NCBI RefSeq assembly: GCF_000017185.1
Contig: NC_009635.1
Span: forward strand, 870,563 to 934,562
DNA: 64,000 nucleotides
Source: Methanococcus aeolicus Nankai-3
Lineage (GTDB): Archaea > AGJL01 > Methanococci > Methanococcales > Methanococcaceae
Direction: 5' to 3'
The position numbers were made by a program, and so were the translations under genes. Positions 40,878 to 49,161 of the stretch are shown piece after piece. Under the pieces are notes generated by a model that saw only the letters and a list, made by a program, of their open reading frames with translations, was not told the origin of the DNA and searched no databases. Each line of letters begins with the position of its first letter. The first letter of the stretch is position 1.

Positions 40878-41172
40878 TCTATCCCCGTAAAAAATATTTG
40901 TAGTACATTCAAGAACTATTTACGCCTAAATATATGGTATGTTCCAATATTTTTTTTATTATCATTATTATTGCAAATACCATATAGGTACAATAGGATA
41001 TAAAAGAACATATATTTTGAATACGCCATATTATAGATTTTTATATATTATAGATTTTTATATATTATAGATTTTTATATATTATAGATTATATTATTGA
41101 ATATTAATTTAATACATTTATCTTTATTTTATTTATTATTTTATCATTTTTTATATTATACCGTGTGATATT
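40878..41172. other. Repeat-rich intergenic region
   Basis: It has a degenerate family B-like start (TAGTACATTCAAGAAC, about 40901), TATGGTATGTTCC, and the 17-bp tandem repeat listed separately. No gene is seen. The promoter for the frameshifted DUF483 gene must lie in its right part; ATTTATTATTTTATC at about 41128-41144 is AT-rich. Confidence 0.4.
41028..41090. repeat. 17-bp tandem repeat, about 3.7 copies
   Basis: Unit ATATTATAGATTTTTAT repeated head to tail without spacers. Confidence 0.85.
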
Positions 41173-41777
41173 ATGAAAATCATGAATGGAGTTAATTCTA
41201 TCGAGGAAATATTAAATAAAATAACAAATGCGAAAAAAGGAAAATCTGGCATAAAACGAATAGATACAATAATACAGAAAATGGATGACCAAAAATACGA
41301 ATATTAGTATATAGACTTAATAAACAGCTCGAAATAGTAAAAAAATACAATCCATCAGTTAGGCCTGCGATAGATCCGTATGTTTCTTCCGAATTAGGAG
41401 TATATAGCGGACTTAACAATATCGAAGACTATGGGGCCCTTATGAATTATCCGGATTGTTGTGTTAAATCATTTGAAACTGCGAGATTTGGAATAGATGC
41501 TGAACATCTAAAAGAGGCCGAATTGATAAAAAAAGAAATAAAAAACGAAGTTATAAACGGTAAAATTAATGTAAAGGATAAATGTGCAATAATAATGCCA
41601 TCAGGATTTATACCATGTAGTTTAAACTGTAAAAATGCCATTGAAAGAAATTTGATTAATATTGTTTCTTATGATGAACAGATCAATATAATTGAATTGG
41701 AAAATAAGTTAAGCCAGGAGCTCCCCCACTATCATGGAGCATATGGTGAATATTATGAAAAAATTATATTATTATAA
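41173..41777 (+). pseudogene. DUF483-like gene disrupted by a one-base frameshift
   Basis: The ATG at 41173 (GTGATATT upstream) opens a frame that stops at 41305-41307 after 44 codons. Reading continues without stop in the next frame from about 41289 (PKIRILVYRLNKQLEIVKKY...) to 41777. One extra base near GATGACC (41284-41290) would fuse the two into a 201-residue protein. The second part has NYPDCCVKSF, MPSGFIPCSLNCKNAI and HYHGAYGEYY, with conserved Cys as in the archaeal DUF483 family. Either a true pseudogene, a programmed frameshift or a sequencing error. Confidence 0.7.
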
Positions 41778-41818: not shown

Positions 41819-42541
41819 TTACCGTTTAAAAAATGGTTTAAAATCAATTGCATCTTTTTTACAGCTTGAAACACATTCAAAACATCTTATACATTCCGTT
41901 TGGTCTATGTTTTTGGTTAGATTTATCTGAACTGGACATTTTCTTTCGCATAATTTACAATTAACACATTTATTATTTAATTTTAGTTTAAATAATGGTT
42001 TTATAGAAAATATCCCAAGTAATGCCCCTATTGGACAGAGATATCTGCAAAATGCCATTGGATATATAAATCCAAGTAATATAACTCCAATAAGGATAAT
42101 AAACGAAAGCAATGTCCCAGATAAATTTGTTAGAGCTCCGATAGGACATACCGAACAATAAGTATATGTTGCCAAATAGTATGTCAATATGATGAATAAT
42201 ATTAAAATTACATACTTTAAATATATTAATTTATTATGGATATTTTTGGGAACTTCGGGAAGTTTTTTTAACCTGGATAATTTAACTCTCAATTTATAAG
42301 TTAAATCAAAAATAAAACCCAATGGACACATCCAACCGCAGAATAGTCTCCCAAAAATTAGTGTAAGTAATGATATTACTATCACCACTGGAACGAAATA
42401 AATACTTCCCAGTAATATGAATTGTTCAATGTATCCAAAAATGCACAGACAAAAGAAGCTTGAAAGAAAGACCGATAAAATTACAAATTTTATAAAAAAT
42501 GCCGACTGAACTATTTTTCTAATAGTTTGTAGTTTATCCAT
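41819..42541 (-). CDS. NapH-like membrane polyferredoxin
   Basis: 240 residues from the ATG at 42541 (AAGTGATATT upstream; an in-frame ATG at 42562 is less likely). Four to five transmembrane segments carry the NapH/NosR-type motifs CGWMCPLG, CSVCPIGA and CRYLCPIGA, followed by two 4Fe-4S motifs (CVNCKLCERKCP, about 200-211; CIRCFECVSSC, about 222-232). Family members pass electrons across or along the membrane. It is the last gene of the minus-strand cluster beginning near 47.3 kb, separated by 4 bases from the regulator gene. Confidence 0.82.
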   Translation of the reverse strand: MDKLQTIRKIVQSAFFIKFVILSVFLSSFFCLCIFGYIEQFILLGSIYFVPVVIVISLLTLIFGRLFCGWMCPLGFIFDLTYKLRVKLSRLKKLPEVPKNIHNKLIYLKYVILILFIILTYYLATYTYCSVCPIGALTNLSGTLLSFIILIGVILLGFIYPMAFCRYLCPIGALLGIFSIKPLFKLKLNNKCVNCKLCERKCPVQINLTKNIDQTECIRCFECVSSCKKDAIDFKPFFKR

Positions 42542-42545
42542 AATA

Positions 42546-42857
42546 TCACTTGAAAAATTCATCTATTTTATCATTGTCAATGTAAAATTTAAATTCCTTT
42601 GATTTATATATTCTTTTAGCCCTAGCTTCTTCCAATATTAAATCACTTTCTACCAAATCAGCTTCTTCCAATTTTTTTAAATGGGTATATATCACTGGTC
42701 TTGATAGATTTAGTGTTTTTGCCATTTCATAAATATTCATGGGGTTTTTATTCAAAAGATGAATTATTTTAATTCTTGTAATATTAGATAATGCATCTCC
42801 CATTTTAACAGTTTTTTCCAAATTCATAAAATCACTAAATTCCTCACTAAATTTCAT
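42546..42857 (-). CDS. Winged-helix (ArsR-like) transcriptional regulator
   Basis: 103 residues. ALSNITRIKIIHLLNKNPMNIYEMAKTLNLSRPVIYTHLKKLEEADLV is a winged-helix DNA-binding domain. No CxC metal site is seen; the C-terminal part (YKSKEFKFYIDNDKIDEF) may dimerise. It overlaps the small membrane gene upstream by 11 bases and nearly touches the NapH-like gene, so it is probably the regulator of this cluster. Confidence 0.78.
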   Translation of the reverse strand: MKFSEEFSDFMNLEKTVKMGDALSNITRIKIIHLLNKNPMNIYEMAKTLNLSRPVIYTHLKKLEEADLVESDLILEEARAKRIYKSKEFKFYIDNDKIDEFFK

Positions 42858-43086
42858 CCCATTTTTTCTTCAACTCCTTAACTGTTTCCTTTATTTCCAC
42901 AGTATCCTTTTCTATTTTTGCCAATTCTATATCACTACTTGGTTTTTTAAATATCAAATACGCCAACATTATTATAATAATTACCAAAAGTATTATTACG
43001 ATATCCCATTCATATCCGAAGAAATGTCCTGTTGCAGTTTGCATAATATCTCCTCCCATGTTATTACTTCCAACACCATAAGGCAT
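42847..43086 (-). CDS. Small single-span membrane protein
   Basis: 79 residues with one transmembrane helix (about 29-46, IVIILLVIIIIMLAYLIF) and a charged, coiled-coil-like tail (ELAKIEKDTVEIKETVKELKKKW). Two in-frame starts each have a strong site: GGTGGAGATATT before residue 1 and GGAGGAGATATT before Met15. Family unknown. It resembles the small accessory membrane subunits next to NapH/CcoG proteins only in general form. Confidence 0.65.
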   Translation of the reverse strand: MPYGVGSNNMGGDIMQTATGHFFGYEWDIVIILLVIIIIMLAYLIFKKPSSDIELAKIEKDTVEIKETVKELKKKWDEI

Positions 43087-43127
43087 AATATCTCCACCTC
43101 AATTAAAAACTAAAATTGATATATTAA

Positions 43128-44078
43128 TTAAAAGTTAAATAAATTTCTTAAATTTATTTCTGTGAGTAAGAATCTTATTATTTTATCAATTATGGATTCG
43201 GAAGTATTTAAATTATCACTATTGGCGGAGACATTTGTGCTATTTATACTAACAATTCCTTCATCAATCATGCAGTTAATTATTGCCTCTTTAAGGTCTG
43301 TTGGAGATAATCCATAAACTTCTTTAATTTCGCCTAATGTGGTATTTTCACTTAATTCATTAATTAATTTTTCTTTTAATTCGTTATTTTTGTAAATTGA
43401 ATTTTGAACCTCACTATTATTTAAAACCACAGTTCCTTTATCAATTAAGCATTTAAGTATTGCCTCTTTGGACTTTGATGGAGATATACCATAAGTTTTT
43501 TTAATGATATCAAATGTGGTATCATCATCTACGGATACCCCCAAATTTCTCTTTAAATCCTCTGGGTTTATATTATACATTTCGCAAATTTGTTTTATGG
43601 TGTAGCTCTTTAACCCACTTCCAGATATGTTTATATATTTATCGATTATTTCTTCTGTAATTTGTATATCGCCAGTTAATGTGTTTTCACTATTGATAAC
43701 TTCGTTTATTTTTAATTTTAAAGAATTAATTAAACAATCCTGACTTATATTATATTCTTCGCATACCTGTTTTAGGGTATAATTTTTCAGCTCACTACTT
43801 GGTGTTGGAACATATTTATCAATAACATCCTCGGACATCACTCCTTCACTTGTTGTTAATGTTGGCGGTATGTTTGACGGAGCTCCGCTCATAGTAGGAG
43901 CTGGTTCACTGTGGTCACAAATACCATTATTGTTTGTGTCAATGTATTTCCCACACTCTCCTGGAAATGTGCATGATGAATCGGTAATTCCATAAGGGCA
44001 GTCATCCCATGCGTAAATTGTACTTAAAGACGACAATATCAAAAACACACTAAAAAAAATAAAAAATAGTTTTTTCAT
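43128..44078 (-). CDS. Secreted CPYG-module protein with two-type tandem repeats
   Basis: 316 residues. Signal peptide (1-23, KKLFFIFFSVFLILSSLSTIYA), then a Cys-rich module DDCPYGITDSSCTFPGECG with a Ca-binding-like DTNNNGICDHSE (about 48-59), a module I have seen attached to NapH-type proteins. Four helical repeats follow: type 1 (IDKYVPTPSSELKNYTLKQV; IDKYINISGSGLKSYTIKQI) and type 2 (TTFDIIKKTYGISPSKSKEAI; TTLGEIKEVYGLSPTDLKEAI). It starts with GGTGAGATT formed over the stop of the DUF2202 gene, so it is translationally coupled. Confidence 0.65.
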   Translation of the reverse strand: MKKLFFIFFSVFLILSSLSTIYAWDDCPYGITDSSCTFPGECGKYIDTNNNGICDHSEPAPTMSGAPSNIPPTLTTSEGVMSEDVIDKYVPTPSSELKNYTLKQVCEEYNISQDCLINSLKLKINEVINSENTLTGDIQITEEIIDKYINISGSGLKSYTIKQICEMYNINPEDLKRNLGVSVDDDTTFDIIKKTYGISPSKSKEAILKCLIDKGTVVLNNSEVQNSIYKNNELKEKLINELSENTTLGEIKEVYGLSPTDLKEAIINCMIDEGIVSINSTNVSANSDNLNTSESIIDKIIRFLLTEINLRNLFNF

Positions 44079-44082
44079 AATC

Positions 44083-44847
44083 TCACCTGTTAGGGCCTCC
44101 TCCCCTCTCCATTGAGCTGCTTAGTATTTGTTCATATTCTTCACTGCTTATGTATTGTGGGGTGTAATTTGCTCCGTAACTATCTAACATTCTAACAAAA
44201 GCTCTCATATGGTTTCTTGAACCTTTCATTAGATTCTCATAAACCAATTTTATGTCTTCGTTATCGGTTTTGCTTATCCAATTTTCTAAATCGGCAATAT
44301 CTAAATCCTCAATAGTTGCCCCAACTATCAACGCATCAACAGCTGACTGACTACCCTTTTCAACTAAATTATTATATAATTCCTCAAATTTTGGATTTGA
44401 GAACTTTCCAACTTCTTCACTTTCAACTGGGTCTGGGATATTGTATTTTTCTAATAGATATTTTACTGAATCAGTATGGGTTTGTTCGCTATTAGCAATA
44501 TTTTTGAATATCTGTAATTTCCACTTATCATATAATGTTAAATAAACATCTCTTGCCAATTTCTCTTCTTCTCTCATTTCAATTAATCCTTCCTTTTCTT
44601 CTTCACTTATTGACTGTTGCGGGAGTGCATCAATATTCTCACACATTAAGCTAACATTTACATCCCCATTATTATTTACAATTCCTCCTTGTCCCATGCC
44701 CATTTGATTTTGATGGTAATCAACTTGATTATTATTTTGTATTTGATTATCTGGCATCTGAGTATCTGTATTTTGAGATATGCATCCTGCCAAAAGAACT
44801 GCGGAAGCAACTAATGATATAACTATTAATTTTAAGATATATTTCAT
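44083..44847 (-). CDS. DUF2202 ferritin-like lipoprotein
   Basis: 254 residues. Lipoprotein signal with lipobox LLAGC (about residues 18-22), an Asn/Gln/Met-rich spacer, then the DUF2202 domain (about 85-230) with EEEKLARDVYLTLYDKW and NSEQTHTDSVKYLLEKY; the EEK...D...E..H pattern fits a ferritin-like diiron helical bundle. Substrate unknown; metal storage or peroxide defence is plausible. Located between the second CWB2-like gene (40-bp gap) and the CPYG protein gene. The start has GGTGATATT. Confidence 0.8.
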   Translation of the reverse strand: MKYILKLIVISLVASAVLLAGCISQNTDTQMPDNQIQNNNQVDYHQNQMGMGQGGIVNNNGDVNVSLMCENIDALPQQSISEEEKEGLIEMREEEKLARDVYLTLYDKWKLQIFKNIANSEQTHTDSVKYLLEKYNIPDPVESEEVGKFSNPKFEELYNNLVEKGSQSAVDALIVGATIEDLDIADLENWISKTDNEDIKLVYENLMKGSRNHMRAFVRMLDSYGANYTPQYISSEEYEQILSSSMERGGGPNR

Positions 44848-44887
44848 AATATCACCATTAAAATTTAAAAAATAAAAAAGAAATCCG

Positions 44888-45943
44888 TCAGTGTTGTGCA
44901 GTTGTCATGCCCCCGTCCTTCATGTTTTGATGATTGATGTGTGGAGCTCCTGCATTTCCTACTGTGGTATTTTCATATTGATGGTTCATAGGTGCGTTGG
45001 TGTTTGCAGGAGTTCCTGCATTTCCAATATTTTGGTGGCTCATAGGAGCTCCCATGTTGCCCATATTATTCATGTTTGCATTCCCCATCATTTTACCATG
45101 GCCGCCAGCATGTAATTGCAACCTAATCGTTGCCATCTGTTCTCCTTCTAACTGTAAAACTATTCTGTATGCATCTTGGTATTTATTTTGATTCATTAAT
45201 TCATTAACTTCATTTAATTTTTCTTCTAATTCAGTGGTGTTTATTCCCTGTTCTTTTAACATTTCAATTTTCATTTCCATGTGTCTTATTCTATTTTGTA
45301 TTGTCAATTTTACTCTGTCTTCTGGAATGTTCTGAACAGCCACATTAAGCCCCTTATTTCTCAATCTATTTACCACTGCTGAATGATTGTAAGAGTAAAC
45401 TGGATTTTCGATTACTTCCACTTTGTTAGTTCTTAAATGTAATCTTTCAGGTTCTACTGATAAGTTTGTGCCGTTTGATAATAATACCAAATAATGACCG
45501 TCTCTTACTCTTGCCATTGTTTCGTTCAGTGATATATCATCCATTCCATGAGCAACGCAGATTGTTGCATTCCCATAGGCATGAGCAAACTCATTTTGGA
45601 ATCTCATCGTAATATTTGCGTTTGTGTCGTATCTTGTTTGACCGCCTATTCTTTCAACTGTTAAACTCGCATTTTCCAATGCGACAATATAATCATCAAC
45701 AACTGCTAAATTTCCACCGATTACTACTACTTTGTCGGGATTAAGTGATTTTATTTCGTCAATTACGCTTTCGTTGTATATTCCCCATGTTGTAGTAACT
45801 ACTGTTGCATTTAATACATTTGCAACTCCCAAAGCTGCTGTTTGGTCTGCATAATTATCACTTACCAATACGACATCTGTTGCATATACTGCTGATGCCG
45901 ATAGTGCTATTAGCGATAAAAGCACCATTAATTTTTTTAGCAT
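44888..45943 (-). CDS. Secreted CWB2-like protein with Met/His/Asn-rich tail
   Basis: 351 residues from the ATG at 45943 (AGGTGATGAAT upstream). Signal peptide (1-20) ending VYA, then a cell-wall-binding-repeat-2-like region (DVVLVSDNYADQTAALGVANVLNA, VVVIGGNLAVV, RIGGQTRYDTNANI), a helical stretch (about 205-280), and a C-terminal 70-residue tail rich in Met, His, Asn and Gly (GHGKMMGNANMNNMGNMG, SHQNIG). The tail looks metal-binding, especially for copper. Paralogue of the next gene upstream. Confidence 0.72.
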   Translation of the reverse strand: MLKKLMVLLSLIALSASAVYATDVVLVSDNYADQTAALGVANVLNATVVTTTWGIYNESVIDEIKSLNPDKVVVIGGNLAVVDDYIVALENASLTVERIGGQTRYDTNANITMRFQNEFAHAYGNATICVAHGMDDISLNETMARVRDGHYLVLLSNGTNLSVEPERLHLRTNKVEVIENPVYSYNHSAVVNRLRNKGLNVAVQNIPEDRVKLTIQNRIRHMEMKIEMLKEQGINTTELEEKLNEVNELMNQNKYQDAYRIVLQLEGEQMATIRLQLHAGGHGKMMGNANMNNMGNMGAPMSHQNIGNAGTPANTNAPMNHQYENTTVGNAGAPHINHQNMKDGGMTTAQH

Positions 45944-46242
45944 ATTCATCACCTCATAGATTGTAACATTAACATATAATATATTATTGGATATAATTGT
46001 TATTATATATACAGTTCTAAGCTCCATGTCTGTACCCTAAACCATAATCTGTGAGCTATCCACAACATCCATCTTCTCAGGTGTCATTACCACAATAACA
46101 TGATTCAATTGTGCATTTTAAATAATGCTTCCTTGGTCATTAGTGGGATATGCAAAAACTAAGGTAATAACTCCTCATTGCGTCACCATATTGTCACCAA
46201 TTTACACAACTGATAGTAAAAATAAAAATAATTTAAAATTAA
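45944..46242. other. Gap between the two CWB2-like genes
   Basis: It likely contains the promoter of the downstream CWB2-like gene (AT-rich TTATATATACAG at about 46001-46012 on the plus strand). There are two near-repeats of TCACCATATTGTCACCAATT character at about 46182-46201 and a CTGATAG-like tail. No ORF is supported. Confidence 0.35.
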
Positions 46243-47334
46243 TTATTCATTGTCATTATCCTTCCCATCATGCTCCATGCCCTCGCGCTCATTGTGCATT
46301 TCATTGTGTATCTCTTGATGGTTATCTTCAGTATCGTTAATTTCTGAGTGTATTTCGGTGTGTATCTCTTGATGCATTTCCTGGTTATCATGGTTTCTAT
46401 CCATGATTTCATCGCCAATCTCTTTGTGTATCTCTTGATGGTTATCTTCGGTGTCATTGAGCTCATTGTGTGTTTCCTTATGCATTTCATGGTGGTCATC
46501 GTCCATCTCGTGAGCTCTAACAACCATTGCCATCTGTTCTCCTTGAAGTTCTACCATTAATTTATAGGCCTCTTCGTATTTGTCCCCATCCATTGCTTCT
46601 TCAGTTTCATTCAATATGCTTTCTAACTCTTCTAACTTATCTTCCAGTTCTGATGCATCTATTCCTTGACTTTTCAATAGATCGATTTTCATTTTAAGTG
46701 CGGTGATTTTATTTTCCATCATAACTTCTATTTTGTCTTGTGGAACAGCATTAATTTTTACATTAGCTCCTTTCATTTTAAATTTTTCTGCTACTAATGA
46801 ACCGTTATATAGTGGACTGTCCATCACTTCAACTTCCTCAATTTCAAGGTCTAAATCTTCAGGATCTACCGTTAAATTAACCCCATTTGTAAGTAATACC
46901 AAGAGTGGTTTATCCATTCCTTGAAATGTTCCATTCAATGCTATATCGTCTCCATGGTAAACATATACGGTAGTTCCATTTCCAAACATATGCTTAAATT
47001 TCAATACAAGGTTTGCATTGGTTTCGTATCTATTTTCCCCAGCAATTCTCTCAACTTCAATTCCTATATTTTCTAATTCTTTTGTGTAGTTTTCAACAAC
47101 TGCCATCGGACCCCCTACAACAATAACATCATTAGGATTCAATGATCTTATTTCATCTAAAACGCTTTCGTTGAAAATGCCCCACGGTGTCTTTATTACC
47201 GTTGCATTAACTGCCTTAGCTACACCTTCCACAGCCACATAATCTGCATGATTGTCACTTACTAAAATAACATCCGTCGCAGATACCATTGGCACTACAA
47301 TCAGAGTTAGCAATAATATCAGTTTTTTTAGCAT
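46243..47334 (-). CDS. Secreted CWB2-like protein with His/Glu/Asp-rich repeat tail
   Basis: 363 residues from the ATG at 47334 (TTGGTGAAATAT upstream). Signal peptide (1-19, ending VSA), CWB2-like domain (DVILVSDNHADYVAVEGVAKAV, VIVVGGPMAVV, RIAGENRYETNANLV), an amphipathic helical part (about 205-270), then a tail of imperfect repeats such as NDTEDNHQEIHKEI and EMHQEIHTEIHSEI that would bind metal ions through His clusters. The tail is coded by degenerate tandem DNA repeats (about 46290-46480). Likely surface-attached. Confidence 0.72.
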   Translation of the reverse strand: MLKKLILLLTLIVVPMVSATDVILVSDNHADYVAVEGVAKAVNATVIKTPWGIFNESVLDEIRSLNPNDVIVVGGPMAVVENYTKELENIGIEVERIAGENRYETNANLVLKFKHMFGNGTTVYVYHGDDIALNGTFQGMDKPLLVLLTNGVNLTVDPEDLDLEIEEVEVMDSPLYNGSLVAEKFKMKGANVKINAVPQDKIEVMMENKITALKMKIDLLKSQGIDASELEDKLEELESILNETEEAMDGDKYEEAYKLMVELQGEQMAMVVRAHEMDDDHHEMHKETHNELNDTEDNHQEIHKEIGDEIMDRNHDNQEMHQEIHTEIHSEINDTEDNHQEIHNEMHNEREGMEHDGKDNDNE

Positions 47335-47680
47335 ATATTTCACCAAGCTTCTTTTACATTCTATTTCTTTAGATTTCCATATATTTAATTCTTTGTTTTA
47401 TAATTCGTTTATATGTAGTATTTTTACTACACATTACTATATTATGAAACAGGTATATATAGATTATTGAGTTATGTAAAAAATATACACAATTATAAAA
47501 ATATAATTGTAAAAATAAAGATATGGGCAATCGTAGGACGCACCATATAAATGACTATTGTCAAATGGGCAGAAATTGTAGTTATTTGCAACCATACAGT
47601 TAATATTATTTCATATTGTTCCATATGTTTTGACTAAATATGTCCAATATACGATTGACTAAATTAAAATAAAAAATTAA
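47335..47680. other. 346-bp region upstream of the CWB2-like operon
   Basis: It contains the palindrome at 47414-47431 (separate entry) and a degenerate family A-like pair: CAATCGTAGGAC (about 47529) and GTCCAATATACGATTGACTA (about 47643-47662), inverted to one another. No ORF is supported. The AIR-synthase-related gene lies beyond it on the same strand. Confidence 0.4.
47414..47431. promoter_or_regulatory. Palindrome TGTAGTA-tttt-TACTACA
   Basis: Perfect inverted repeat (7-bp arms, 4-nt spacer) 80 bp upstream of the CWB2-like gene start (47334). It is a good candidate operator for the winged-helix regulator encoded at 42546-42857. Confidence 0.45.
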
Positions 47681-49033: not shown

Positions 49034-49161
49034 AATTACACCAAATTGATTAATATATTAATTATTTATATGGTTATATAATTATATATTCATTTATAAA
49101 AATAGAATAATGATAAAAATAAAAATATGATATATTGGGAGCTCCTGCTAAAAATCCCAAT

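Follow-up and report, generated by a model that had tools for sequence, protein, structure and literature searches.

The window analysed here is the whole 64,000-nucleotide stretch of Methanococcus aeolicus Nankai-3 contig NC_009635.1 from position 870,563 to 934,562 (the contig totals 1,569,500 bases), and within it seven co-oriented minus-strand open reading frames (ORFs) occupy about 41819-47334. Read along the minus strand, they encode two CWB2-like surface proteins (CWB2b and CWB2a), a DUF2202 lipoprotein, a secreted protein named here CPYG after its cysteine motif, a 79-residue membrane protein, a winged-helix regulator and a NapH-like membrane protein. The features of this cluster, window coordinates first, are as follows.

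46243-47334, minus strand: CWB2b, a secreted protein resembling cell-wall-binding-2, its C-terminal tail rich in His, Glu and Asp (HxEIH repeats); ORF and PF04122.
46026-46115, minus strand: what is probably left, in decayed form, of a small gene for a secreted Cys/His-rich protein, called from position and residual motif only.
44888-45943, minus strand: CWB2a, secreted and CWB2-like, with APHxxHQN-type motifs in a tail rich in Met and His; PF04122.
44083-44847, minus strand: DUF2202 ferritin-like lipoprotein with an LAGC lipobox; PF09968.
43128-44078, minus strand: CPYG protein, secreted, with a four-Cys module DCPYG..C..PGEC..YIDTNNNGICDHSEP and small helical repeats; ORF.
42847-43086, minus strand: 79-residue membrane protein with a single span, its C-terminus charged and coiled-coil-like; one transmembrane-like segment.
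42546-42857, minus strand: ArsR-type winged-helix regulator without Cys; PF01022.
41819-42541, minus strand: NapH-like membrane polyferredoxin; Fer4_5, motifs and hydropathy.
41840-47467, no strand assigned: block common to the window and genome G033, an apparent horizontally transferred unit; single collinear blastn alignment.

All seven genes named in the original prediction are present as ORFs, and its CWB2 (twice), DUF2202, winged-helix and NapH-like assignments each find Pfam support. Specifically, CWB2a and CWB2b score 27.7 and 26.1 bits against CW_binding_2 (PF04122), both above the gathering cut-off of 24.9 and each with one partial repeat above threshold, while DUF2202 (PF09968) reaches 216 bits against a gathering cut-off of 22, the winged helix 50.9 bits for HTH_5 (PF01022; cut-off 22) and the NapH-like protein 70 bits for Fer4_5 (cut-off 22). 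The CPYG protein has no credible or significant match in Pfam or NCBIfam, and the 79-residue protein has no credible match in Pfam.

The cluster probably moved as a unit between genera. Window positions 41840-47467 align with G033, which belongs to another genus, as one 5.7-kb blastn block at 90% nucleotide identity, and the flanking sequences do not align; for the remaining window homologues in G033 identity ranges over 64-85%, nearly always 64-76%, and HypD, for example, shows 77% protein and 73% DNA identity. The contrast between this single 90% block and the 64-76% seen elsewhere, together with the unrelated flanks, argues for horizontal transfer as a block. Within it, identity is about 95% for DUF2202, CWB2a and CWB2b (CWB2a itself being 95% identical to its G033 copy), 91-92% for the 79-residue and winged-helix genes, and 82-86% for CPYG and NapH. 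The G033 copies of NapH and CWB2b (L176) are frame-broken and those of the window intact, the breaks reflecting either real decay or sequencing error. The gene families that flank the G033 cluster are those flanking the cluster of G034; G023, of the same genus as the window, carries a CWB2 gene beside SelD as the window does, and yields no CPYG, DUF2202 or 79-residue match.

Comparison of the neighbourhoods in 36 Methanococcales genomes, labelled from G000 (M. aeolicus Nankai-3) onward, reveals recurrent adjacency of the same families. DUF2202 occurs in 17 of the 36 and CPYG in 24; CPYG lies by NapH in all 24, at a distance of at most 0.7 kb in 23. Of the 17 DUF2202 genomes, 12 have CPYG no more than 1.5 kb away from DUF2202, and 10 have CWB2 no more than 0.4 kb away from it. 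In two of these ten (G009 and G010) the CWB2 relative is fused to DUF2202 through a Met-rich linker, which in G009 also contains His. A random pair would fall within 2 kb with a chance of about 0.0025. The set is split in G003, G005, G006, G010 and G015-G017, and on this gene-order evidence the core is the CPYG-NapH pair, often joined by DUF2202 and CWB2 in a modular composition; the G015-G017 genomes, for instance, have the arrangement CWB2-CWB2-CPYG-NapH. The proposal of one seven-gene unit stands to the extent that a co-inherited surface cluster is well supported by the block transfer, the adjacency and the CWB2-DUF2202 fusion, but the seven do not form an invariant set; likewise, the expectation that the genes would not be scattered in other methanogens holds in part, since the pieces keep recurrent combinations but are separated in some genomes. 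Surveying the whole phylum for DUF2202 gave the same 36 genomes and none beyond, and a search of plasmids found two DUF2202 places, both without cluster genes, and no CPYG.

In three Methanocaldococcus genomes (G007, G014 and G004, which we take to be that of M. jannaschii), NapH is followed by F420H2 oxidase, hemerythrin, rubrerythrin and V4R genes, with a desulfoferrodoxin-family gene a few genes further; G001 carries the set without these neighbours within the stretch examined. The M. aeolicus genome itself holds a second NapH-like gene, which adjoins F420H2-oxidase-family and rubrerythrin-family genes (L138). The F420H2 oxidase encoded by M. jannaschii mj_0748 has been purified and is regarded as an enzyme of O2 detoxification, although its gene is reported to be transcribed on its own (PMC6616113).

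The DUF2202 lipoprotein is modelled well. Its model (predicted local distance difference score, pLDDT, 83) superposes on entry 3q4r of M. jannaschii MJ0754 with a TM-score of 0.99 by target length and 84% identity in the structural alignment; MJ0754 has been solved as PDB 3Q4N/3Q4R, and 3q4r holds Zn2+. After MJ0754, ferritins and diiron enzymes such as bacterioferritin and diiron oxygenases match the fold with probability near 1 and weak E-values, and modelling thus supports a four-helix bundle of the ferritin-like superfamily. Residues E93-E95, E121, H124, E180 and H213 are invariant in the alignment; among them, E94, E121xxH124, E180 and H213 may supply the paired E/ExxH metal ligands of the ferritin-like superfamily, but SRNH stands where the second ExxH would be, in the fourth helix. 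These invariant Glu and His residues fit a predicted site for two metals in which the fourth helix departs from the standard. The G004 gene has its lipoprotein signal in another frame than the remainder of DUF2202 (L161:10250-10600), so the crystallised MJ0754 was probably without its natural N-terminus, and this fits the solved 185-residue protein without a signal.

The tails of the CWB2 proteins are rich in potential metal ligands, as the original prediction had described. Among 620 ORFs of the compared neighbourhoods, the CWB2 family fills the top ranks for His+Met density, with CWB2b highest, and small secreted neighbours of CWB2 hold the top ranks for His+Cys density; because of this joint ranking, the metal-ligand tails are not there by chance. 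In several relatives a small secreted Cys/His-rich protein is encoded directly upstream of CWB2, and in G003 upstream of CPYG. An intact ORF of this kind stands just 5' of CWB2 in G034, G005, G006, G010 and G009, the proteins of G009, G003 and G034 taking ranks 1, 2 and 3 of the 620 for His+Cys density, and G001, G004, G007 and G014 have a secreted protein with a Cys/His-rich tail just upstream, after a short gap. At the corresponding place in the window lies a stop-riddled frame with the motif CTIESCYCGN..EDGCCG..LTD..YRHG, and the G033 counterpart is similar and also decayed. The Cys/His-rich head gene belongs to most DUF2202-containing clusters and seems, from these remnants, to have decayed in both genomes. 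Three of the small proteins that head the cluster in relatives (L167:6016-6285, L160:7249-7575 and L177:6018-6302) are metallothionein-like and dissimilar in sequence.

The CPYG protein is predicted to carry a signal peptide, a four-Cys module (modelled at low confidence) and helical repeats; C27, C42 and C54 are invariant in a 17-sequence alignment, and a fold search of the PDB gave no significant match. A DxNxNGxC loop suggested an Excalibur-type calcium module, a match that Pfam does not report. Outside Methanococcales the CPYG module turns up here and there among bacteria and archaea, in many cases at the head of a DUF4405-like membrane protein. One Moranbacteria genome encodes a DUF2202 protein, 58% identical to that of the window, immediately upstream of a CPYG protein, and in another bacterium a ferritin gene lies immediately downstream of one. 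Two further arrangements were seen: a His-rich protein (HEEHEEHMEEEHEHDH) with a CPYG-like helical segment directly 5' of a CPYG membrane protein (L198:6538-6942), and, in one Patescibacteria genome, a DUF2202 gene divergent from a gene for a small regulator that by eye resembles CsoR (L213:213-1349).

The NapH-like protein combines four transmembrane-like segments and three CxxxCP/CxxCP motifs with a two-cluster Fer4 domain. It scores 87.1 and 86.4 bits against the NapH models TIGR02163 and NF007013 (curated cut-offs 213 and 234) and 39.1 bits against the CcoG model TIGR02745 (cut-off 316.7), reaching none of them, and no periplasmic nitrate reductase genes occur among the annotated neighbours of the cluster. 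By these curated cut-offs the protein is not a true NapH or CcoG.

The 79-residue protein and the winged helix travel together. The gene for the former occurs in 16 of the 36 genomes with a winged-helix gene adjoining in every one, and the pair adjoins cluster genes in 7 of the 16 (G000, G033, G003, G005, G006, G009 and G010) in several arrangements; elsewhere it sits beside apparent housekeeping genes. The winged-helix protein scores 44.2 bits against the ArsR/SmtB metalloregulator model NF033788, under its cut-off of 55, and with no Cys and two His it does not present a Cys-based metal site. On its distribution, the pair is best read as an independent regulatory module able to join the cluster. 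Inspection by eye of the upstream regions revealed no clear motif for a shared winged-helix operator.

Gene boundaries bear on the tight coupling that had been proposed. The 4-bp spacing between DUF2202 and CPYG (44079-44082) and the GGTGA ribosome site overlapping the TGA stop at 44083 are both seen in the sequence. The 11-nucleotide overlap of the 79-residue and winged-helix genes (42847-42857) is present in the ORF calls but depends on an uncertain winged-helix start, as most relatives begin a few codons later; the two genes either overlap or lie end to end. The NapH-like gene follows 4 bp past the winged-helix gene if the conserved start at 42541 holds, which is preferred over 42562 because the relatives' alignments begin there. 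For CWB2b an ATG at 47334 is the most likely start, in agreement with the end first given for the cluster, and CWB2a is placed at about 45943 instead of the ORF's 46027. Because some 300 bp lie between CWB2b and CWB2a, and CWB2a is followed by a T-rich stretch, the seven genes may be read as several transcripts. Next to the cluster, a DUF483 gene (41182-41777, plus strand) has a frameshift near 41306 that places its first 41 residues and the rest in different frames. Two AT-rich intergenic stretches of the window (41030-41180 and 49054-49138) have numerous matches of about 75% across G023, perhaps as dispersed repeats or only through low complexity.

We read the cluster, with somewhat less than even confidence, as a mobile cell-surface cassette for metal and redox stress, its metal, electron flow, role and regulation being as we infer them. 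In this scheme the CWB2 proteins would hold a transition metal in the cell envelope by their His/Met/Glu-rich tails, as the small Cys/His-rich secreted protein would in most relatives, and the DUF2202 lipoprotein would act as a ferritin-like two-metal protein on the membrane's outer face. The NapH-like protein, a plausible candidate for the electron source of the surface metal protein, would use its CxxxCP motifs and Fer4 domain to carry electrons from cytosolic ferredoxin to the outer face, where CPYG would serve as its extracytoplasmic partner, either docking or handing electrons to DUF2202 or the bound metal. The 79-residue protein and the winged helix would probably constitute a membrane-coupled regulator. 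The envelope would thereby be spared damage from redox-active metal, O2 or peroxide, and the cassette would complement the cytosolic F420H2 oxidase, rubrerythrin and desulfoferrodoxin encoded nearby in relatives. A bolder extension, which we regard as possible and rather doubtful, is an undescribed, horizontally mobile archaeal surface system in which CPYG-NapH exports cytosolic electrons to the ferritin-like protein and the metal-binding tails, with CPYG, which ultrasmall bacteria also have, acting as an adaptor of general use for passing electrons outward.

Several observations weigh against the stress-cassette reading. The CWB2 tails of the G015-G017 group lack His/Met enrichment, and some are acidic; 12 of the 24 CPYG genomes have no DUF2202 beside CPYG-NapH, so the partner of that pair need not be DUF2202. 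Among strong-DUF2202 Patescibacteria, one of five has an adjoining CPYG (roughly 1-kb flanks inspected), and the DUF2202-CPYG pairing outside the order is a minority pattern and not a rule. M. jannaschii fprA is reported to be monocistronic (PMC6616113), and neighbourhood is thus not equivalent to co-transcription.

Alternatively, the cluster could serve in defence against copper or another soft metal, with the Met/His/Cys-rich secreted proteins sequestering copper extracellularly and the NapH-like protein reducing Cu(II) to Cu(I) in the manner of bacterial CcoG. The repeated appearance of Cys/His/Met-rich proteins at the head of the cluster accords with such a role, as does membership of the NapH-like protein in a broad superfamily that includes CcoG (a 39-bit match to TIGR02745), a cupric reductase whose loss raises copper sensitivity (review PMC7558416). 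The 316.7-bit CcoG cut-off is nevertheless unreached, the annotated neighbours include no identified copper ATPase or chaperone, the solved DUF2202 entry names Zn2+ and not copper, and the winged helix lacks the Cys of a classical metal site; we consider this explanation unlikely. No better placed is acquisition of iron or sulphur by a surface device for iron or iron sulphide, in which exported electrons would reduce Fe(III) or FeS2 and DUF2202 would buffer iron. In its favour, the gene order recurs in L207, where a CWB2-family member (its best match in the compared set is 37% identical) takes the position of Mvol_0771, and the CWB2 family of surface proteins may be responsive to iron-sulphur or redox stress; yet the L207 gene is equated with Mvol_0771 from gene order only, the CWB2 relative of voltae-like genomes has neither DUF2202 nor CPYG beside it, and the Mvol_0771 source paper itself regards growth on FeS2 as perhaps a challenge for the cell.

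A chance gathering of unrelated surface proteins, a regulator and an electron carrier would account for the split sets listed above and for the 79-residue/winged-helix pair standing alone elsewhere. It is strongly disfavoured by the similarity of the G033 block, the CWB2-DUF2202 fusion, the repeated adjacency and the low random-pair expectation, and we hold it to be very improbable.

The combination had been put forward as one not known under a name, and our literature search likewise found no publication describing the seven genes together, nor a name or function for the set; it found no paper on DUF2202 and MJ0754, and for the MJ0748-MJ0755 loci the fprA genetics paper only, with none that handles those genes as one system. 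To our knowledge, Methanococcales have few known means of carrying out redox reactions beyond the membrane. A conserved cassette that can be transferred and that couples an iron-sulphur protein of the membrane to a ferritin-like one on the surface would be a candidate for metal and oxygen defence or for iron-mineral chemistry. It hints at roles for DUF2202, of which the solved member MJ0754 still bears the label hypothetical, and for the unnamed Cys module (CPYG) of archaea and ultrasmall bacteria.

Among known systems, the NapH-like protein shares with NapH, NosR and CcoG the four transmembrane-like segments, the CxxxCP motifs and a C-terminal two-cluster ferredoxin domain, whereas its scores (87 of 213, 68 of 1000 and 39 of 317 bits, respectively) lie far under the curated cut-offs, and no nitrate reductase, N2O reductase or cbb3 oxidase genes are seen in the cluster neighbourhood. 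DUF2202 resembles rubrerythrin, bacterioferritin and other ferritin-like proteins in its four-helix fold, its ligand-like residues and weak Pfam matches to Rubrerythrin and MiaE, but it is a secreted lipoprotein in which no rubredoxin domain was found and SRNH stands for ExxH in the fourth helix. The same WDDCPYG..DTNxDGICDHS module is found in DUF4405-like membrane proteins from Patescibacteria and other prokaryotes, some with a similar helical segment after the signal peptide; one passes the DUF4405 model and one matches it weakly. In those proteins the module continues into a fused membrane domain that contains His, whereas the CPYG protein of the window adjoins the NapH-like protein instead. 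The MJ0748-MJ0755 region of M. jannaschii differs from the window in having two NapH copies where the window has one, in the location of its winged-helix pair elsewhere and in the out-of-frame DUF2202 lipoprotein signal, but it presents NapH, CPYG, DUF2202 and CWB2 in the same order beside the F420H2 oxidase.

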